DNA of 36,626 nt from Myxacorys californica WJT36-NPBG1. GTDB lineage: Bacteria; Cyanobacteriota; Cyanobacteriia; Leptolyngbyales; Leptolyngbyaceae. A program made the position numbers and the translations under genes. This document shows positions 11,868 through 19,798 of the stretch, in pieces; position 1 is the first letter of the stretch, and each line of letters opens with the position of its first letter. Location of the stretch: positions 1-36,626 of the forward strand of contig JAHHHO010000052.1 of the NCBI GenBank assembly GCA_019359315.1, written 5' to 3'. The notes beneath the pieces were generated by a model. It had not been told where the DNA came from. It searched no databases and was given only the letters and a program-made list of their open reading frames with translations.

Positions 11868-12182
11868 CTAGAGATCACTCTCAAAAATGAACTGCTCTTG
11901 ATTTGGGCTTATGAGAATGCAATCTCGAATCGCCTCAATCATGGCAATAAACCATTTATCTTCATCAGTCGTTTTAGTTTCTTTGAGCATCTGCACTTGC
12001 ATTTCTAGGTTTTTTAAGTCACTCCTAGCAAGGATAAGCCTATCTTCAAGTCCGCCTACTTGCTGATACTCTCCGATACCTAACTCAGTGCTGATTCTGT
12101 GCATTTCTGAGGGCTGACCAAGCCTATACTTCCAAACTATTTGGCAACCACTATTAACTTCACACCCAATAAGTCTACTCAT
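11868..12182 (-). CDS. Small protein of unknown function (first gene of cassette C7)
   Basis: This 104-residue protein shows a strand-rich N-terminus (GCQIVWKYRLGQPSEMHRI), a middle helix likely to form a coiled coil (EDRLILARSDLKNLEMQVQ), and a C-terminus rich in Ile and Phe. No family is recognised. It is the first of three same-strand genes in cassette C7, about 130 bases ahead of the 91-residue gene. It begins within 75 bases of the cassette start. Its existence rests on position, strand and length. Confidence 0.6.
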   Translation of the reverse strand: MSRLIGCEVNSGCQIVWKYRLGQPSEMHRISTELGIGEYQQVGGLEDRLILARSDLKNLEMQVQMLKETKTTDEDKWFIAMIEAIRDCILISPNQEQFIFESDL

Positions 12183-12249
12183 GAGATTTCTGTAGCAATT
12201 TCACCATAGATACACAGATACACAAGTTTTGAATAAAGCAAACAGCGCG

Positions 12250-12337
12250 GTCTAACGTTCGCGCTCACCGGACGCAGACAGCTTTTGCGACTCAACCAAC
12301 CATCTTGCAACGTTCTGGTGCAGTGCGATTGTTATGT
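12250..12337 (-). other. attC6 recombination site
   Basis: The site is 88 bp, the longest here. R' is GTTAGAC (12256-12250). R'' is ACATAAC (12337-12331), one mismatch from complementing the GTTATGC that opens C6. The arms AACGTTCGCGCTCACCGGA and TCTGGTGCAGTGCGATTGTT resemble those of attC2. Confidence 0.92.
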
Positions 12338-12404
12338 GGTGCGTTGATGATTGACTTTCCCCACACCGATCAGATATGGCTTTGTCCAGACTTATTCATC
12401 AACC

Positions 12405-13088
12405 TTAATTTACGGTAAGTAGTAGGGCATCTCCTTCTTCTACCGCATCTTTGAGATATTTCCTGAGATCTCGGAGAAACTCAACAAAATCCGTAACATC
12501 CTCGTCTGTCATCACTGTAGTGGAAAATCCATTCATATCGGATATAAACTGCCATCGTCTTTGAAAATTATCCTTATCAATCTCCTTCAAAGCCTTGCTT
12601 ATCTCTTTTACTGCTTCAGCCTCAAAAAATCTTGGCTTACCGTAACCAAGATCATTACCTATTTCTTGACCTCCCCCTACAAGATTCACGAATAAATAAC
12701 TGCTAATGCTTTTATCCTGATTCACTAAAAATGAAGGGTTTGGCTCACGAGTGCCAGCTAAAAATATATGTAAAGAGTCCCATCCACCACCAACAGCGCT
12801 ACGAGTTCCCAAATTAAATGTTGGAAATCTGGACTCAGCCAAGATTAAGGGAATATCTGCTTTGATATGTTCAAAGTCAGTAGGTTGCAATTGAAATTCA
12901 TAGTATCCTTGCATCAGATCTGCATATTCATCCTGCATTTCCTGAATTGCCACCCACGGTTCAATACCTGAATTTATCTGCTCCTTGAGTTTCCAAGCAT
13001 TACAGAACAGATCTACAAGAGCAGGATATTTTTTGAAACGATCAAGCAGATAAGGTGAGACTTGATTTAGGTAGGCATCAGAGGACAT
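12405..13088 (-). CDS. DUF1877-like protein (cassette C6)
   Basis: From the ATG at 13088 the product is 227 residues. A TTG two codons upstream is less likely. The middle GGWDSLHIFLAG, the YGKPRFFEAEAVKEISKAL helix and the end FLRDLRKYLKDAVEEGDALL follow the order seen in DUF1877 (YfbM-type) proteins, whose molecular role is unknown. The N-terminal 75 residues (YLLDRFKKYPALVDLF...) precede that domain and are helical. The protein looks cytosolic and acidic. It is the only gene of cassette C6. The family call comes from the motif order, so I give moderate confidence. Confidence 0.78.
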   Translation of the reverse strand: MSSDAYLNQVSPYLLDRFKKYPALVDLFCNAWKLKEQINSGIEPWVAIQEMQDEYADLMQGYYEFQLQPTDFEHIKADIPLILAESRFPTFNLGTRSAVGGGWDSLHIFLAGTREPNPSFLVNQDKSISSYLFVNLVGGGQEIGNDLGYGKPRFFEAEAVKEISKALKEIDKDNFQRRWQFISDMNGFSTTVMTDEDVTDFVEFLRDLRKYLKDAVEEGDALLLTVN

Positions 13089-13183
13089 AAGCAATACTGA
13101 GTACTCAATTAACCCTTGGCTTTTGAATGATTGTTTTTGATTCTACAAGTAGCTCCACTCTAAAGCAGATTAGTTTGTTCGTG

Positions 13184-13270
13184 GCATAACGTTCCGGTTG
13201 AGCGGCAACTAACAACTTTTGCAGCACAACCAGGATCTTTCAAAAGTCCGCTCCGACCGGGTTGTTATGC
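13184..13270 (-). other. attC5 recombination site (same as attC1)
   Basis: The site is 87 bp. R' is GTTATGC (13190-13184). R'' is GCATAAC (13270-13264), the exact complement of the GTTATGC opening C5. From the crossover point inward it is identical to attC1. Only the R' bases beyond the crossover differ (GTTATGC here, GTTAGGC there), as expected because those belong to the neighbouring cassette. Confidence 0.94.
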
Positions 13271-13285
13271 TGCGTTTCATACTGC

Positions 13286-13819
13286 TCATACCTCGATAGT
13301 TCCTGGCTTACGCGAACTGTCTGGATTGTGACTCCAGGAATTAGGGGATAGCCATTTGAAATACTCCAACCCAATTAGATGAGCAAAGCGATAAGCTCTG
13401 TCCTCACCGTCAGTTATGAGACACTCTCGCAGAGCTTCAACATTTTCAGGAGATTGCGGAATCCATTGAGTCAACAGATTGAGATCTGGATTATTAGGTG
13501 GTCGAGATGCGCTCAGATCATCAAATTCCTCGTCTAAGGAATCATCCCACCAGTGTTGAAACACCATTTGACGCTCTGCACCCTCGTAAACTTCGATAAC
13601 CCAACCGTGATCCTCACCATAGGAGTAATGCAGCAACAGGCCAAGATTTGCTTGAATGATCGCTGGCAGACCTTCCCAATCTTGCCCTGTTGGGACAAAA
13701 CTTGTCCACTGGTTATTTGAAGGAAAAACAATCCCATTCAATCCTGCCCTTTGCAGCAACTGAACAGCATCTTCTTGAGAGGCTTCACGTAGATGATATG
13801 ACTCACTAAACTCACTCAT
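13286..13819 (-). CDS. Protein of unknown function, second copy (cassette C5)
   Basis: This 177-residue acidic protein has no family I recognise. A mixed alpha/beta start (EDAVQLLQRAGLNGIVFP) leads into NQWTSFVPTG, then LLLHYSYGEDHGWVIEVYEG, an acidic Asp/Glu stretch and a helical end. That layout recalls small immunity or SMI1-like proteins, but this is only an impression. GGAGGTG precedes the ATG at good spacing. The gene and its whole 699-bp cassette are identical to cassette C1 (13190-13888 equals 16141-16839). Confidence 0.82.
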   Translation of the reverse strand: MSEFSESYHLREASQEDAVQLLQRAGLNGIVFPSNNQWTSFVPTGQDWEGLPAIIQANLGLLLHYSYGEDHGWVIEVYEGAERQMVFQHWWDDSLDEEFDDLSASRPPNNPDLNLLTQWIPQSPENVEALRECLITDGEDRAYRFAHLIGLEYFKWLSPNSWSHNPDSSRKPGTIEV

Positions 13820-13882
13820 GCTAGCTTCACCTCCAATACAAACAGATGAGATTCAGACTGCCCCTCTACCGGAGACTAAGCG

Positions 13883-13969
13883 GCATAACGATTGCGTTCA
13901 GCGGATGCAAATAACATCGAACTCAGCACCAAAAGCTGTACTCATTCCGTTGCAACGCACTTGTTATAC
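13883..13969 (-). other. attC4 recombination site
   Basis: The site is 87 bp. R' is GTTATGC (13889-13883). R'' is GTATAAC (13969-13963), the exact complement of the GTTATAC opening C4. The arms AACGATTGCGTTCAGCGGA and TCCGTTGCAACGCACTTGTT pair well. Confidence 0.93.
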
Positions 13970-13982
13970 GGCGATCGCTGAT

Positions 13983-14561
13983 TCAGTGAAGCCAGAAAAT
14001 GATTCTTACTTCTTCTGGATTGCCCAACTTTAGTAACTCTTCAACAAACCAGTCCACACACCCTACAAACTCACGATAGCTTTCTACCCATGCAACCTCG
14101 GTTGTCCCTTCCCTTTTCGTCATGTAAACAGGTTCATCGTCTGGAAGACTATCCGGGAAAGAAGCTGAACTACAAAATAAATGAGCATACTGACTTTTCA
14201 CATACCCAGTACAGGGCGGGAATTTCCTGTCCCAATCATAATCAATGACCTCTTGAACCATGAACCAAGTGAGATAACGATTTAGGCTAGACCAATTATT
14301 TTCAAGATACTCCTTGTAAACAGCATTCATATCCTCTGGAAAACCGCGTGGTTTGGAAAGAGGAACTATTTCTTCTGTGTGCCCAAGATGATAGAGTTCG
14401 CGGCGATGGAAGCCGACCAAAGCGGCGTATAACTCGTATGGTGTACCAGGACGCATATAGCAAACAGGAACCTGCTTACCTTTTGACCATCTTGGCGCTG
14501 GAGTTGGTTCCCATTGATTATTTCTCCAAACCTCTGCGTAGAGGCTACTCGTCGTACTCAT
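13983..14561 (-). CDS. Protein of unknown function (cassette C4)
   Basis: This 192-residue protein is soluble and aromatic-rich. It opens SLYAEVWRNNQWEPTPAP, has a helical middle (MNAVYKEYLENNWSSLNRYL) and ends VDWFVEELLKLGNPEEVRII. No family is recognised. The start is the first ATG in frame, without a strong ribosome site. The stop is 13 bases before attC4. The conserved-looking Trp and Tyr content and the tight fit between cassette ends support a real gene. Confidence 0.72.
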   Translation of the reverse strand: MSTTSSLYAEVWRNNQWEPTPAPRWSKGKQVPVCYMRPGTPYELYAALVGFHRRELYHLGHTEEIVPLSKPRGFPEDMNAVYKEYLENNWSSLNRYLTWFMVQEVIDYDWDRKFPPCTGYVKSQYAHLFCSSASFPDSLPDDEPVYMTKREGTTEVAWVESYREFVGCVDWFVEELLKLGNPEEVRIIFWLH

Positions 14562-14680
14562 ACGTCCCAGCTAGTATCTGAATCTGCTCAGTTTCATCAT
14601 CTTGAACAATATGATGCCAATTTAACTTCACAATCTCGCCAGTTATTCTCTCAAGGACACTCTCACCCAGGATTCAAGCC

Positions 14681-14766
14681 GTATAACGATCGCCATCAGC
14701 GGCAACCTACAGCTTTGCTTCCACACCAGCAATCATTGCTTGTCCGTTGCATGGCGCTTGTTCTAC
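14681..14766 (-). other. attC3 recombination site
   Basis: The site is 86 bp. R' is GTTATAC (14687-14681). R'' is GTAGAAC (14766-14760), the exact complement of the unusual GTTCTAC opening C3. Such a shared deviation from consensus is strong evidence that both ends belong to one cassette. The arms are AACGATCGCCATCAGCGG and CCGTTGCATGGCGCTTGTT. Confidence 0.93.
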
Positions 14767-14794
14767 TGTCATACTGCGGCTTCTCAGTTCTCTA

Positions 14795-15160
14795 CTAATC
14801 CAACATTACAAAAACGTACTTTTGCCCAATATCCAGCTCTTGCTCATATCCTTGTTCGCGTGCAATTTCCCCTGTCCAATTCAGCACGCTCTGGCGCAGA
14901 TCAGGATCATCAGGTAACTCAATGCACAACTTGCCAGTATTCTCAAAATCTCCTTCATCATCAATCTCTACAGCAAAAACTTGAACTGCGCCTGCATCAA
15001 ATACTTCTTGAACGAATTCGATAGATTCTTCTGTACCTCTCAAAACACCTAAGCTTCTCGGCTTACTGTCATCTTGCAGCCAAGGTAAGACCTCAGCAGA
15101 TTCGGTATTCTCAATAAGATCTAGGCAAAATGTATCGTTCTGTTCTTTTGTACCGCTCAT
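14795..15160 (-). CDS. Small acidic protein of unknown function (cassette C3)
   Basis: From the ATG at 15160 the product is 121 residues. A TTG at 15184 would add eight. The protein is acidic, with a strand-helix layout: LGVLRGTEESIEFVQEVFDAG, then VQVFAVEIDDEG, GKLCIELPDDPDLRQSVL and the end IGQKYVFVMLD. The pattern is that of a small alpha/beta protein, and no family is recognised. It ends 28 bases before attC3. The start choice is uncertain because neither codon has a strong ribosome site. Confidence 0.7.
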   Translation of the reverse strand: MSGTKEQNDTFCLDLIENTESAEVLPWLQDDSKPRSLGVLRGTEESIEFVQEVFDAGAVQVFAVEIDDEGDFENTGKLCIELPDDPDLRQSVLNWTGEIAREQGYEQELDIGQKYVFVMLD

Positions 15161-15296
15161 TGTCGGGTTTTCCCAAATCGTCAATAGAATGCTCTGACTT
15201 GTATAGTTCCCAATCTAATTCAGTAGCAACTCATGGAGCCAGGCATTGCGTAGAAGCAATTGCGTATAAGCTGTCCTAACCCTTACGATTTCAGCA

Positions 15297-15383
15297 GTAG
15301 AACGATCGCGCTCACCGGACGCAGATAACCTTTGCAATTAACTGACGATATCATAACGTTCCGGTGCAGCGCGATTGTTAGGC
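15297..15383 (-). other. attC2 recombination site
   Basis: The site is 87 bp. R' is GTTCTAC (15303-15297). R'' is GCCTAAC (15383-15377), the exact complement of the GTTAGGC opening C2. The arms AACGATCGCGCTCACCGGAC and TCCGGTGCAGCGCGATTGTT pair almost fully, with extra bases on one side. Confidence 0.94.
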
Positions 15384-15413
15384 TTTTGTACATGACCGAT
15401 GCAATGAACCTTG

Positions 15414-16064
15414 TCATTCGTCATAACAAAATCTTGTATAAGTTCTTCTGGATCTACACGCACTGCATAATCTAATTGCCAAGCCTATAATCTTTTCTAG
15501 TTTTAGGTTATTGGCATAACGCATTGAACCACAAGGGAGTGGGTCGTAGCCATGCTTCTTATCAAAATCTGTTGGAATCCAAATATCCTGAGATTCATAC
15601 ATATCAGCATATCTCTGGGAAGCAACTGCTACTGTTGCCTCTTCAACATCATTAGTAATATTTGCAATGAGCGCTTCTGTATTACGCTCCCAAACGGCTC
15701 CCCATAAACCATCATTGCAATCAGCGTCTCCTTCATTGAAAACCAACCTTGCCTCCACAACCGCTCCGTCTAAACCTACAATATCGAAGTCAAACCAGTG
15801 ATATTTTCCGATATCGTAGTTTGCTGGGTCATCATCGCCACCACAATCATGAAAAAGATCTATGTGTTCTTCAGGAATATTGGGGCAATCAAGGTATAGT
15901 CCTGTGCTGCAACTTCCCAAAAATCTAATTGGACGGACAGGATAAACCATTGCAGACTGCTCGGAGATACCTGCCGCGTTGAAAGCTTTCACCAGGAATT
16001 TTGGTACTTCCTCCTTCAATTGGCATTCAGCAGGAGCTAATTCGTTAATACAAGTTGCCCACAT
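15414..16064 (-). CDS. Protein of unknown function (cassette C2)
   Basis: This 216-residue protein is acidic, with FLGSCSTGLYLDCPNIPEEH, a WFDFDIVGLDG strand and GLWGAVWERNTEALIAN. The last 15 residues (CSACRSRRTYTRFCYDE) are basic and Cys-rich, unlike the rest. They may reflect a late frameshift or simply run-out before attC2. No family is recognised. A weak AGAAG precedes the ATG. It is the second cassette from attI, so it is likely among the more recently acquired. Confidence 0.72.
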   Translation of the reverse strand: MWATCINELAPAECQLKEEVPKFLVKAFNAAGISEQSAMVYPVRPIRFLGSCSTGLYLDCPNIPEEHIDLFHDCGGDDDPANYDIGKYHWFDFDIVGLDGAVVEARLVFNEGDADCNDGLWGAVWERNTEALIANITNDVEEATVAVASQRYADMYESQDIWIPTDFDKKHGYDPLPCGSMRYANNLKLEKIIGLAIRLCSACRSRRTYTRFCYDE

Positions 16065-16134
16065 AATATTAATCTTCTTTGAAAGGTTCAGCCTCCAGGA
16101 TTCCCTAAAAGCATATTCTTCGCGACGATTTGAA

Positions 16135-16221
16135 GCCTAACGTTCCGGTTGAGCGGCAACTAACAACTTTTGCAGCACAACCAGGATCTTTCAAAAGTCC
16201 GCTCCGACCGGGTTGTTATGC
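16135..16221 (-). other. attC1 recombination site
   Basis: The site is 87 bp. R' is GTTAGGC (16141-16135). R'' is GCATAAC (16221-16215), the exact complement of the GTTATGC opening C1. The arms AACGTTCCGGTTGAGCGG and CCGCTCCGACCGGGTTGTT are identical to attC5. Confidence 0.94.
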
Positions 16222-16236
16222 TGCGTTTCATACTGC

Positions 16237-16770
16237 TCATACCTCGATAGTTCCTGGCTTACGCGAACTGTCTGGATTGTGACTCCAGGAATTAGGGGAT
16301 AGCCATTTGAAATACTCCAACCCAATTAGATGAGCAAAGCGATAAGCTCTGTCCTCACCGTCAGTTATGAGACACTCTCGCAGAGCTTCAACATTTTCAG
16401 GAGATTGCGGAATCCATTGAGTCAACAGATTGAGATCTGGATTATTAGGTGGTCGAGATGCGCTCAGATCATCAAATTCCTCGTCTAAGGAATCATCCCA
16501 CCAGTGTTGAAACACCATTTGACGCTCTGCACCCTCGTAAACTTCGATAACCCAACCGTGATCCTCACCATAGGAGTAATGCAGCAACAGGCCAAGATTT
16601 GCTTGAATGATCGCTGGCAGACCTTCCCAATCTTGCCCTGTTGGGACAAAACTTGTCCACTGGTTATTTGAAGGAAAAACAATCCCATTCAATCCTGCCC
16701 TTTGCAGCAACTGAACAGCATCTTCTTGAGAGGCTTCACGTAGATGATATGACTCACTAAACTCACTCAT
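16237..16770 (-). CDS. Protein of unknown function, attI-proximal copy (cassette C1)
   Basis: The 177-residue product is identical to the C5 product, and the nucleotide sequence appears identical across the whole 699-bp cassette. The protein is acidic, with WVIEVYEGAERQMVFQHWWDD at its centre and no recognised family. GGAGGTG lies ahead of the ATG. As the cassette next to attI it is the likely newest insertion and the one best placed for expression from an integron promoter. An exact duplicate means either recent copying of C5 into attI or a second capture of the same circle. Confidence 0.82.
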   Translation of the reverse strand: MSEFSESYHLREASQEDAVQLLQRAGLNGIVFPSNNQWTSFVPTGQDWEGLPAIIQANLGLLLHYSYGEDHGWVIEVYEGAERQMVFQHWWDDSLDEEFDDLSASRPPNNPDLNLLTQWIPQSPENVEALRECLITDGEDRAYRFAHLIGLEYFKWLSPNSWSHNPDSSRKPGTIEV

Positions 16771-16833
16771 GCTAGCTTCACCTCCAATACAAACAGATGA
16801 GATTCAGACTGCCCCTCTACCGGAGACTAAGCG

Positions 16834-16840
16834 GCATAAC
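16834..16840 (-). other. attI core site with crossover point
   Basis: The heptamer is GTTATGC on the - strand (16840-16834), with crossover between G16840 and T16839. The boundary is fixed by comparing C1 and C5. Sequence is identical up to CGGCATAAC on the + strand, then C5 continues into attC4 while C1 continues into TCTTTTTTAG, which is the fixed attI side. Confidence 0.88.
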
Positions 16841-16870
16841 TCTTTTTTAGATAGATCTAGCCCTTCCTAT

Positions 16871-17090
16871 TCTGTCTATCTCGCCCGAATTGGGATCTTA
16901 GACAGATCTTCATCTGGATAACGCCTCACATCAGAACGTTATCCAGATGGAGATCTGTATATCTGCCCAAACTGGGTGATTAGACAGACGACAATCTGCA
17001 TAACACTCCGAATCGGAACGATAGGCAGACAGAGATCTGTATAACACCCCAAAATGGGTGATTAGACAGACGAAGATCCGGCTAAGATCT
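16871..17090. repeat. About 41-bp degenerate tandem repeats in the attI region
   Basis: Five clear units begin near 16883, 16923, 16965, 17006 and 17047, with a partial unit before and after. Shared elements on the + strand are an AATTGGG-type block, TTAGACAGAC-type block, AGATCTG and ATAAC. Read on the - strand, the ATAAC ends give GTTATCC (16922), GATATAC (16963), GTTATGC (17004) and GTTATAC (17045). These heptamers resemble integron core sites and are spaced 41, 41 and 41 bases apart. Confidence 0.85.
16902..16958. repeat. Large inverted repeat inside the attI ladder
   Basis: The 21-base arms 16902-16922 and 16938-16958 are complementary at 20 positions, with the one exception a T-G pair. 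A 15-base spacer separates them. The arms carry GGATAAC and GTTATCC, inverted core-like heptamers, next to the loop. Single-stranded DNA here could fold like a short attC. Confidence 0.8.
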
Positions 17091-17239
17091 CTGTGCAGCA
17101 GGTTATATAGATTGATTGTTGGGATAATAGCTCCATTTATGAAGCGCATTGCTATTCCTTCAGCAAATCTTTACCACCCCTTACTGAGCATGACCCTATG
17201 ATTAGTTCATTAGTACTCAGATGTTGACTTCCCTAATCT
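17091..17239 (+). promoter_or_regulatory. Upstream region of intI
   Basis: This stretch of 149 bases lies between the repeat ladder and intI. TATGAT at 17197-17202 could be a -10 box for intI, but no -35 box sits at normal spacing. On the - strand, TATTAT and TATATA near 17106-17127 could serve an integron promoter toward the cassettes, also without a clear -35. No Shine-Dalgarno sequence precedes intI. Confidence 0.3.
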
Positions 17240-18202
17240 ATGGAAACCCGTCCCAGAAAGCTTCTAGATCAAGTTCGTGATGTCATTCGCCTCAAGCATT
17301 ACTCCTACCGCACAGAACAGAGCTACGTAAATTGGATTCGCCGTTATATCCTGTTTCACAACAAGCAGCATCCTAAAGATATGGGAGTTCCAGAAATCGA
17401 AGCCTTTCTCACTCATCTTGCAGTTACTAAAAAGGTCGCAGCTTCAACTCAAAATCAGGCGCTGAGTGCGTTGCTGTTTCTCTATCAATCAGTACTCAAG
17501 CTACCACTCGATGATTCGATTAATGCGATGCGGGCGAAGCGTTCAAAATATCTGCCCACCGTCTTGAGTAAAACTGAAGTGCGGGCAGTCTTGCAAGAGA
17601 CTTCTGGGGTGTTTCAACTCTTGCTCAAACTACTCTATGGCAGTGGAGTACGGCTAACCGAAGGATTGCGGTTGCGGGTGAAAGATCTAGATTTTGCTCA
17701 TCGTCAAATTGTGGTGCGCGATGTCAAGGGGAATGAAAGCCGCGTGACAATGTTGCCAGAAAGCTTGATCGAACCCCTTCAGCAGCATTTAAGAAAGGTC
17801 AAGCAACTGCATCAGCAAGATTTGGATCAGGGGTATGGCTCCGTTTTCTTGCCGTTTGCTTTAGAGCGTAAATATCCTAGTGCAGACCGTGCTTGGATTT
17901 GGCAATTTGTTTTTCCTGCGTTTAGTCGATCGCGTGATCCTCGCAGTGGAATGGTGCGTCGTCATCATCTACATGAAACTGGGGTGCAAAGATCCCTCAA
18001 ACAAGCGGTTGTTGCTGCACGCATTGAGAAACGGGTAAGCGTTCATACCCTGCGCCACAGCTTTGCAACTCACTTGTTAGAAGATGGCTACGATATTCGG
18101 ACGGTGCAAGAATTGCTAGGACATAAAGATGTAAAAACTACCATGATCTATACTCATGTCCTTAACCGAGGTGGAAAAGGTGTTCGCAGTCCACTCGATT
18201 AA
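17240..18202 (+). CDS. intI: Integron integrase (tyrosine recombinase)
   Basis: This 320-residue protein is full length for IntI. The N-terminal SAM-like DNA-binding domain spans about 1-95 ([20 protein letters not shown] type, here [16 protein letters not shown]), and the catalytic domain follows. Active-site residues are all present: Arg138 (GSGVRLTE), His269 and Arg272 (VHTLRHSF), His295 ([10 protein letters not shown]) and Tyr304 (IYTHV). Each sits 8 residues before its counterpart in IntI1. The IntI-specific patch that contacts the extrahelical bases of folded attC is present at about 211-227 ([17 protein letters not shown]). It catalyses attC x attI insertion and attC x attC excision of cassettes. 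It is divergent from the cassette array. The frame is unbroken, so it looks active. Confidence 0.96.
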
Positions 18203-18235
18203 GAGATGAGCCTCTGCGACACCTTCTCCAGATGC

Positions 18236-18484
18236 TTATCTTGATTCCCTTGGAGTTGCGCTCTGCGCTAATCGTTGCCTCGTCAAAATACTCATCACCT
18301 CAGTCGAGTTGGGTACAGGTAACACTGGACTCCACGCCCCAGCTTCTGCATAGCCCAACACATGCAACGTGTGTATCGTTTCAATGACACCTTCCCGTGA
18401 GCCGATCGCTAATAAGCGTAATCGATCGCTATTGCTAGACTCGTTCTCCAACCGTGATACAAGACCTTGCACACTGTAATTCAT
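18236..18484 (-). CDS. Small protein of unknown function
   Basis: This 82-residue protein is convergent with intI. It shows a helix with DRLRLLAIGSREGVIETIHT, then LHVLGYAEAGAWSPVLPVPN and a final EVMSILTRQRLAQ. This pattern suggests a small helical cytosolic protein; I do not recognise the family. AGGAG lies 8 bases before the ATG. That ribosome site and the start codon border one arm of a 10-bp inverted repeat, so translation could be controlled by folding of the leader. Confidence 0.72.
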   Translation of the reverse strand: MNYSVQGLVSRLENESSNSDRLRLLAIGSREGVIETIHTLHVLGYAEAGAWSPVLPVPNSTEVMSILTRQRLAQSATPRESR

Positions 18485-18680
18485 TTTGGGCTTCTCCTAA
18501 TGGTGTATGGGAAGAAAGCCCAAAAATCTAGCCACCCCCGAAACGCAGCGAAAAGCAGGGGTGGCTAGTGAGATGCTATGATCCCTCGTTAGCCCCCGCG
18601 CTGGCTAGAACAGCGTTGGGCGGTTAGTCGTTCAAAGCTGTGACCAGCAACTTTGGACGACGCTAGATTTTTGGACAACC
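18485..18680 (-). promoter_or_regulatory. Leader with competing hairpins over the ribosome site
   Basis: On the - strand, TTTTGGGCTT (complement of 18516-18525) can pair perfectly with AAGCCCAAAA (complement of 18484-18493), which follows AGGAG and includes the A of the start codon. The first half of the same segment can instead pair with CCAAAAATCTAGC (complement of 18662-18674), which matches GCTAGATTTTTGG (complement of 18520-18532) over 13 bases. A third hairpin, TAGCCACCCC/GGGGTGGCTA (18529-18567), overlaps both. Mutually exclusive pairing upstream of a start codon is the layout of a riboswitch or attenuator. No known class is recognised. Confidence 0.5.
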
Positions 18681-18714
18681 GTTGTCTCCGCTTCACAGAA
18701 ATGGATGAGACAAC
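18681..18714. terminator. Hairpin, possible terminator
   Basis: The perfect 8-bp arms GTTGTCTC (18681-18688) and GAGACAAC (18707-18714) are followed on the + strand by TTAATTT. It may terminate + strand transcription leaving intI, but it lacks a strong T run. The rest of 18715-18829 holds only a small GTGGGT/ACCCAC hairpin and no gene. Confidence 0.35.
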
Positions 18715-18829
18715 TTAATTTGTGAGCGTAGAGGATTTACTCAGTCGTCGTCAAGTCGATTACGATCAATTTTTGTGAGTGGGTGACAGAAACCTACCAA
18801 CCCACCCTTAAGCAAAACCAGCCTAGACA

Positions 18830-19246
18830 TTAGTTCAGAGTTTTACTCGTCGCCTTGCCATTCGTTTCCGCCTTTGCCAAACTAGGCGCAGTCTCATCAG
18901 GAGTCGTCTTACCTTCCGCCTTACGGCGCTGTGAATTATTAGACCCCCCTGCTTCGCCATACTCCCAACTGGTCTTGCCATAGCGAGCGGCAACACACAT
19001 CAACATCTTGCCAGAATAGGTCTTCAACTCCTGCTCTGCCAACGTAATTTCACCCGTTAGCTTATCCAAAGCACCGAGTAGGTTATTGTAAGCAGACACT
19101 TGAGAATCTAGTGAAGCAATCTTTGCATCATAGACCCTTAAATTCAGCCCATCTCCAAAATCAAGCGTTTCACTAATGGCGTGCATTCCAGCCGCACGTT
19201 TTTGCGCTTCGCTCACCACTGCAGAGCCACGTTTAGGACGCGTCAT
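18830..19246 (-). CDS. Conserved-type small protein with C-terminal YGK-x3-EY motif
   Basis: This 138-residue protein starts with a basic segment (MTRPKRG). A long helical middle (IASLDSQVSAYNNLLGALDKL) may form a coiled coil, followed by AARYGKTSWEYGEAGGSNNSQRRK. The YGK-x3-EY-x2-AGG-x-basic motif recurs in small proteins of many filamentous cyanobacteria, though their function is unknown. The tail is Ala/Lys/Thr-rich and probably disordered. There is no clear ribosome site. The family memory is unverified. Confidence 0.72.
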   Translation of the reverse strand: MTRPKRGSAVVSEAQKRAAGMHAISETLDFGDGLNLRVYDAKIASLDSQVSAYNNLLGALDKLTGEITLAEQELKTYSGKMLMCVAARYGKTSWEYGEAGGSNNSQRRKAEGKTTPDETAPSLAKAETNGKATSKTLN

Positions 19247-19411
19247 TGTTTTATTTTTCTAAAGTTTTCTACCGCAATCTAACGAGTCCAAGCAGAGATT
19301 TCCTTGAGAACAAATAAGTAAACTTTGAGCAATCTAATAAAGCCGTCAAAATTCTCTAGTATTTCTACTCAAGGCATTTGACTGAACTATTTATCTTTCA
19401 GGTTGCGATCG
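19247..19411. other. AT-rich stretch without features
   Basis: This stretch contains only the upstream region of the 138-residue gene and the entry into the HIP1 repeat. I see no promoter strong enough to call. Confidence 0.5.
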
Positions 19412-19642
19412 CGTTCACTCATCAAGTTGCCGCGATCGCTCCACGAGTTGACGCGATTAATCGACGAATTGGAGCGATCGCTCCACAAGTTGACGCGATT
19501 AATCGACGAATTGGAGCGATCGCTCATGCAGTTAACGCGATCGCTCGTGCAGTTAACGCGTTCAATCGACGAGTTGACGCAATCAATCGACAAGTTGCCG
19601 CGATCAATCGGCGAGTTGAGGCGATCGCTCCATGAGTTGGCG
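19412..19642. repeat. 21-bp HIP1-based tandem repeat, 11 units
   Basis: Eleven imperfect 21-bp units are built from GCGATCGC or CGATTAATCG followed by -GAGTTG-. A 42-bp block at 19433-19474 is nearly repeated at 19475-19516. Because 21 is a multiple of three, three frames stay open, two on + and one on -. The frame opening with a TTG at 19403 would encode perfect heptads such as RSLHELT and RLIDELE, like a coiled coil. No ATG or strong ribosome site begins any frame, so I annotate repeat DNA rather than a gene. Confidence 0.88.
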
Positions 19643-19798
19643 CGGTTTCAACCTAATCTGCCAAAGATAATTTTTTTTGCTCTATGTCGAATTCCCAAAT
19701 TCTTGTAACAGAATCTAAGATCGTACTATTCTCAAATCAAACTAAATTAAGGCTGCTGTTATACAGTTGATCAATAGAAACTAAAAAATCAAAACAGG

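Follow-up and report, generated by a model that had tools for sequence, protein, structure and literature searches.

What is the RNA that precedes a gene for an 82-residue protein, and can it switch the expression of that gene? A first-pass annotation of the window, by which the whole 36,626-nucleotide stretch of DNA analysed here is meant, had described a leader in which one segment pairs either over the ribosome site and start codon or with a distant upstream stretch. In this study, the region was found to be, with good probability, the 5' leader of a one-gene transcript and to act in cis as an RNA switch for the small protein's translation. The gene lies at 18236..18484 on the minus strand, with the A of its ATG at 18484, and belongs to an uncharacterised small-protein family. 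All three pairing elements named in the annotation are present on the minus strand as follows: helix S, in which an anti-SD segment at 18525-18510 pairs with the SD region at 18497-18484; a long-range helix, P1; and a G+C-rich hairpin of 10 bp, P5. In helix S, the GGAG is paired and the first base of the ATG is reached, and the core of the helix, UUUUGGGCUUU/GAAGCCCAAAA, includes the A at 18484. P1 joins CCAAAAAUCUAGC at 18674-18662 to 18532-18520, and its inner end shares the 3' arm of its competitor P5 (18567-18558/18538-18529). The third hairpin had been said to overlap both other pairings; P5 does overlap P1, at 18529-18532, but it has no overlap with S itself.

The core helices P1 to P5 span 18675-18510 on the minus strand and are flanked by a 5' hairpin, P0, and by the 3' helix S. 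P2 (18627..18661) and P3 (18593..18623) are minus-strand hairpins with hypervariable apical loops, that of P2 lying at 18647-18641, and P4 (18570..18587, same strand) is a short hairpin with an A/U-rich loop. P0 joins GUUGUCUC at 18714-18707 to GAGACAAC at 18688-18681 on the minus strand in the computed fold, and in relatives different letters that also pair were read by eye at this position. The support for P0 is weaker than that for the core helices; the fold z-score of its region averaged -1.02 and was below -1 in 31 of 75 leaders. The leader strand as a whole folds at -81.6 kcal/mol against -64.4 (s.d. 4.65) for shuffled sequences (z -3.7, with none of 200 shuffles as good). The opposite strand also folds with a z-score of -3.97, and fold energy alone therefore cannot fix the strand. 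The strand is fixed by the covariance-model scores, which place the RNA on the strand of the gene: 29 full-length matches there scored 87.8-162.6 bits, and the best reverse-strand match scored 30.3.

Comparison of homologous leaders showed conserved pairing of the predicted helices P1, P2, P3, P5 and S. Over 29 leaders, 88.0% of the cells held standard pairs, double changes occurred at 26 of the 43 pairs and the covariation score was 0.363 against 0.190 for shuffled alignments; over 76 leaders (alignment A11), standard pairs filled 90.4% of the cells, double changes were seen at 30 of 43 pairs and the score was 0.382 against 0.179, counts that lean on the fit to the model, since alignments A6, A10 and A11 were made with covariance models and thus favour the model structure. 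For the 76 leaders, the best slid register reached 0.099, and any of the five measures was matched in 0 of 500 shuffles. A6 was built without the partial locus L003 and without L010, L038 and L039, and reverse-strand matches were removed by threshold. In the plain MAFFT alignment A1, double changes in P2 were already visible, with P3 and parts of P5 misaligned. Among the single helices, P2 had double changes at 12 of 12 pairs in A11; P5 was paired in 96.7% of cells with double changes at 4 of 10 pairs; and P4, paired in 64.5% of cells, was the weakest. P3 was also covered by the A11 covariation analysis, in which the window row is out of register at the inner P3 pairs; the pairing of CGCUG (18615-18611) with CAGCG (18603-18599) was read by eye. 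The annotation had named a lack of covarying changes in homologues as the observation that would speak against its proposal, and strong covariation was obtained over both the 29 and the 76 leaders.

The mutually exclusive pairing is conserved as well. An extended P1 scored at least 9 in 72 of the 76 leaders, and P1 and P5 share a 3' strand that is complementary to both. At column 298, the shared base is paired with both of its partners in 73 of 76 leaders, with A-U-A in 61 and G-C-G in 9. These G-C-G changes may be one or a few events, because all nine rows belong to genome family f13. Within this arrangement, the inner end of P1 is contested by P5 and its outer end by S. The locus combines two marks of a cis-regulatory switch leader, namely a 5' leader with covariation-backed secondary structure and two mutually exclusive helices that are both conserved. 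The riboswitch- or attenuator-like design is supported, as a predicted layout, by the conserved pairing and by the P1/P5 overlap.

A predicted sigma-70-type promoter precedes the core on the minus strand, with TTGACG at 18754-18749, an 18-base spacer and TACGCT at 18730-18725, and the pattern is conserved upstream of the core in relatives. Of 75 leaders (one of the 76 was left out of this count), 60 have TTGANN-N16-19-TANNNT at a distance of 20-75 nt 5' of the core, against a mean of 1.2 and a maximum of 5 in shuffled sequences, and the spacer was always 17 or 18. Among the paralogues of G023, the genome with the most copies, the pattern occurred in 32 of 40 (shuffled 1.5, maximum 5). A generic promoter scan of the window made no call here, and the -10 element is a weak match. 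A transcript starting downstream of the upstream arm would also have counted against the proposed leader; by sequence, the predicted promoter lies upstream of the whole core. The leader, put at about 195 bases in the first pass, is probably longer, at about 234 nt with the extra 5' hairpin and a start near 18718 suggested by the promoter-like pattern.

The extent of the repeated unit bears on a further explanation, in which the region is a mobile element or part of the adjoining integron and the RNA serves recombination and not expression. The copies are dispersed with unrelated flanks, and just 33 bases separate the small gene from the end of an integron integrase gene, a tail-to-tail pair that recurs in G023 (L148). 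However, in 13 FACHB-471 copies, homology starts around the promoter and stops shortly 3' of the gene, and only one integrase was noticed among the neighbouring ORFs shown for 20 of 40 G023 copies. Moreover, none of the attC-like repeats of family D3 (12247-16173) falls at the leader within the region 12000-19700, and the window leader had no blastn match in plasmid and phage records; one scan of viral contigs likewise returned no relative. This explanation is very improbable. The recurrence of promoter, leader and gene as one unit in many copies also speaks against the remnant of a mobile-element RNA that had been considered in the first pass.

The neighbourhood itself contains a cyanobacterial integron at 12247-18202, with an integrase at 17240-18202 (TIGR02249, 473 bits) and six attC-like repeats by look. 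The genes between the repeats are on the minus strand, and one gene of 177 residues occurs in two copies that encode the same protein (13286-13819 and 16237-16770). In L148 (G023, contig C24), the integrase that stands tail-to-tail with the leader-plus-small-gene unit matched TIGR02249 at 453.7 bits. On the other side, the unit is adjoined by a gene for a 138-residue protein (18830-19246), which had no Pfam, PHROGs or NCBIfam match. Its homologue at L002 1707-2120 (36% identity over 128 columns) adjoins another copy of the unit from the same genome, C101, and is divergently oriented there. A repeat array with 21-base spacing, rich in GCGATCGC, follows at 19369-19662.

SD pairing by the leader appears from the compared loci to be widespread but not uniform. 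The S partners were found in very different letters in other loci, such as UGGGAUUUCCU/AGGAGAUCCCA (L018), GUUCUGUCUUC/GGAGACAGAAC (L137) and UGGGUUUUCC/GGAAAACCCA (L024). When partners were permuted among 74 of the 76 A11 rows, own partners scored 16.61 against 14.32 (s.d. 0.30), and 0 of 300 permutations were as high; an earlier form of this test had dropped two of the 76 and added 11 loci picked by hand from a set of 20, and the figure given here is from the run without those 11. In the G103 copies, the anti-SD segment folds on itself into a GGUUUUU/AAAAACC hairpin that does not involve the SD, although a weak 4-bp GAGU/ACUC hairpin is possible. The switch logic in G103 may therefore differ from the S-based scheme.

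The two folds are nearly balanced in predicted energy. Over 70 leaders (six of the 76 were left out), forcing P1 or blocking its 5' strand gave a mean energy difference of 0.1 kcal/mol (s.d. 3.7), with 59 leaders within 5. With P1 formed, the predicted SD was more open in 30 leaders, less open in 4, and in the other 36 the change did not exceed 0.1. In the window itself, the energies were -87.6 with P1, -89.6 with P1 blocked and -90.4 unconstrained. The predicted SD exposure was nearly flat there (0.39 with P1 and 0.34 without), and the direction in which P1 would be the ON state is accordingly taken from the relatives.

A mechanism of the following kind is suggested. Transcription is predicted to start near 18718, and P0, P2, P3 and P4 would fold as a core. 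In one state, P5 would form locally and the stretch 3' of P5 would pair with the SD and start codon as S, which would keep translation low. In the other state, the 5' strand CCAAAAAUCUAGC would form P1 with the base of the P5 3' arm and the following UUUUUGG, so that S would be weakened and the SD exposed. The two folds presumably interconvert in the cell with P1 as the ON state, and a cellular signal would decide between them, candidates for which are a small molecule, an RNA and the gene's own protein product. Translational riboswitches have a similar layout, in which a conserved multi-helix core just upstream of a gene is closed by a long-range P1, and this helix is in competition with a fold that sequesters the SD. 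In contrast to these, the present RNA precedes one uncharacterised gene family and occurs in up to 76 copies per genome.

The same P1/P5 competition could also be read at the level of transcription, with P5 and the UUUUU as an intrinsic terminator and P1 as the antiterminator. In this explanation, the G+C-rich P5 would be expected to precede a U run, and UUUUU does follow within 2-4 bases in 26 of 29 leaders, with UUUU in L037 and UUU in L015 and L023. Of five P1 pairs examined, three keep U on the U side in 75 or 76 of the 76 leaders while the A side varies to G, and L015 and L023, which lack P1, are also those in which the run is shortened. However, the terminator score d was negative in 29 of 29 leaders, by a formula derived for E. 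coli and no proof for cyanobacteria, and a terminator scan of the window region found none. On these two results, an intrinsic terminator was rejected as the main reading, and transcription attenuation is unlikely compared with the translational switch.

Other known leader types fitted poorly. T-box leaders also have long structured leaders with competing helices, and the window has a GGGUGGN-like string; however, this string lies in a paired arm that covaries, and there is no Rfam match. The U of the UGGN, which should be invariant in a T-box, is a paired P5 base that covaries as A-U in 47 and G-C in 26 of 76 leaders, and a T-box was rejected. A leader-peptide attenuator was likewise rejected, as no conserved short ORF with an SD was seen inside the leader; an ATG ORF of at least six codons occurs in 65 of 76 leaders, with an SD-like motif before it in 15, counts that have no chance control.

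On the evidence of gene order, the leader appears strongly linked to one family of small proteins. In 28 newly fetched loci, the family protein was found on the RNA strand in 27, being the next ORF shown for 20; the one locus without it, L062, is a second fetch of L015. In G023, the gene was present at 39 of 40 fetched copies, which were drawn from the higher-scoring of its 76, and the 40th lies at a contig end. Seven genomes had 73 listed RNA places; a listed family protein was nearby at 50, and 20 of the other 23 were fetched, all 20 giving a family match, at a distance of 54 to 256 nt in 19. At L182, the family gene is about 1.58 kb away behind a putative transposase-like ORF of 449 residues, and at L195 it appears broken. 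Starting from the gene side, 39 loci comprised 33 with a strong leader, one with a weak leader, three with none (L092, L099 and L100) and two with too little upstream DNA, and the leader was absent in 4 of 4 plasmid gene loci read. Two f13 genomes have 41 genes to 24 leaders and 26 genes to 9 leaders, so leaderless or strongly diverged cases exist. Of the three RNA places left over from the 73, two were read: by eye, L037 precedes a divergent family protein and L008 a methyltransferase-like ORF. The leader cores of L015 and L023 (both in G060) are without P1, have only UUU where UUUUU or UUUU stands elsewhere and precede an unrelated ORF of 113-115 residues; together with L008, these are the three leader loci before another ORF.

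This linkage is what would be expected under autogenous control, in which the small protein binds its own leader, shifts the P1/P5 balance and holds the copies in one feedback loop. Apart from these three loci, the directly downstream genes that were read are all of this one family, and the C-terminus of the protein is often basic by eye. Against this, some family members have no leader, and profile, Foldseek and VIA-align searches placed the protein in no RNA-binding family or fold. At the limits applied, it matched nothing in Pfam, PHROGs or NCBIfam, and its best PDB sequence match had an E-value of 0.069. The AlphaFold2 model (pLDDT 77.7, pTM 0.57) gave nothing at E <= 0.001 in Foldseek (best 0.079), and rows for ferredoxin-like, ACT-like and PII-like folds appeared that were too weak for use (best VIA-align Z 4.3). 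Autogenous leaders of ribosomal-protein operons are likewise structured and tied to one protein family; in the present case, however, the units are dispersed paralogues and not one operon, and the binding of leader by protein is putative. Taken on its own, autogenous control is a possible though not a probable explanation. As the deciding signal of the switch, the protein acting back on its own leader is about as good a fit as a riboswitch, a label that requires a ligand.

The RNA is repeated within genomes and patchy among them. In its own genome, a DNA search added C101, a second copy at 77%, and C92, a partial match of 50 bases, and the covariance model found six places, which were strong at C119, C20, C101 and C12 and weak at C90 (42.9 bits) and C24 (39.9 bits), the last two with no family gene present. 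At C92 (L003 1501-1550, G000), the S segment alone is left and the start codon runs to a stop after three codons; this copy is apparently a remnant of the RNA-plus-gene unit. It lies shortly 3' of a putative uroporphyrinogen-methyltransferase-like gene. With the own genome included each time, matches were obtained in 12 of 144 neighbourhood genomes by DNA search, in 97 of 388 genomes of the class by model R2 with at most seven candidates scored per genome (71 of 334 in the good-quality subset), and in 11 of 386 genomes of a phylum-wide draw, all 11 being listed as own, same family or same class. All named relatives are cyanobacteria, and the spread across this phylum is patchy. In eight chosen positive genomes with 150 candidates scored, 76 (G023), 24, 22, 11, 9, 7, 6 and 4 copies were counted. 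Copy numbers of 22, 24 and 76 far exceed those known for riboswitch classes. With Rfam 15 (4227 families) at gathering score, only tRNAs reached threshold in the window and 20 related loci, and a permissive search gave one row at E 8.3. A likeness to symR opposite the leader of L065 (1569-1640, plus strand) reached 33.9 of the 61 bits required (E 0.0033 and 8.3e-5) and was taken as chance, although unexplained, and a likeness to R1162 in L065 was also below threshold. No description of this RNA was found in the literature covered, which took in few subscription journals, so that an account in print may exist.

The apical loops of P2 and P3 vary to an unusual extent on this scaffold. In 40 G023 copies (L138-L177), the two loops gave 40 different combinations. 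The share of differing loop positions is 54-64% in each of the four gene-divergence classes, including those with a difference of 13% (7 pairs) or 26% (95 pairs) at fourfold sites, and in the same low-divergence classes the stems differ by 4-6% and the P5 loop by 0%. Loop change faster than neutral, and with it selection, is not proven by these figures, because copies that exchange gene sequence would slow the gene-based clock. Among 75 distinct P2 loops from G023 and A11, seven exact reverse-complement pairs were found, a number reached in 0 of 1000 draws of a column-preserving null (mean 1.82, maximum 6); a null of letters shuffled within loops (mean 0.17) was too easy for this comparison. 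P3 gave 0 such pairs among 97 loops, and no exact P2 pair was found within G023 alone. Near pairs in G023, at an edit distance of up to 2, made up 11.9% for P2 and 1.9% for P3, against 3.1% in within-loop shuffles for each. Loop inversion by template switching has been described for rRNA hairpins (PMC8794818), and the P2 loops resemble it in that exact reverse complements are found on retained stems. Full loop inversions are called very rare in rRNA there, unlike the seven pairs among 75 loops here. By this analogy, template switching could be a cause of P2 variability. Kissing of the P2 and P3 loops was not supported, as permutations matched the observed score in 289, 266 and 165 of 300. An RNA-protein module, in which a leader with two variable loops on a fixed scaffold would act with the small protein, the loops would give each copy its identity and P1/P5 would divide the transcript between messenger and functional RNA, is a speculative reading with a small chance of being right. 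An additional role as an independent RNA is conceivable.

In conclusion, the leader is, by comparative prediction, a two-state cis-acting RNA that goes with a single small-protein family. With it, an RNA family backed by covariation and unmatched in Rfam 15 is added, sited before one uncharacterised protein family of cyanobacteria. Natural variants of the system are present in the form of leaderless paralogues, two modes of SD handling, dozens of different loops and two P1-less loci in which the U run is shortened. The high copy number would mean either that dozens of paralogues stand under one signal or that the RNA has a role beyond control.
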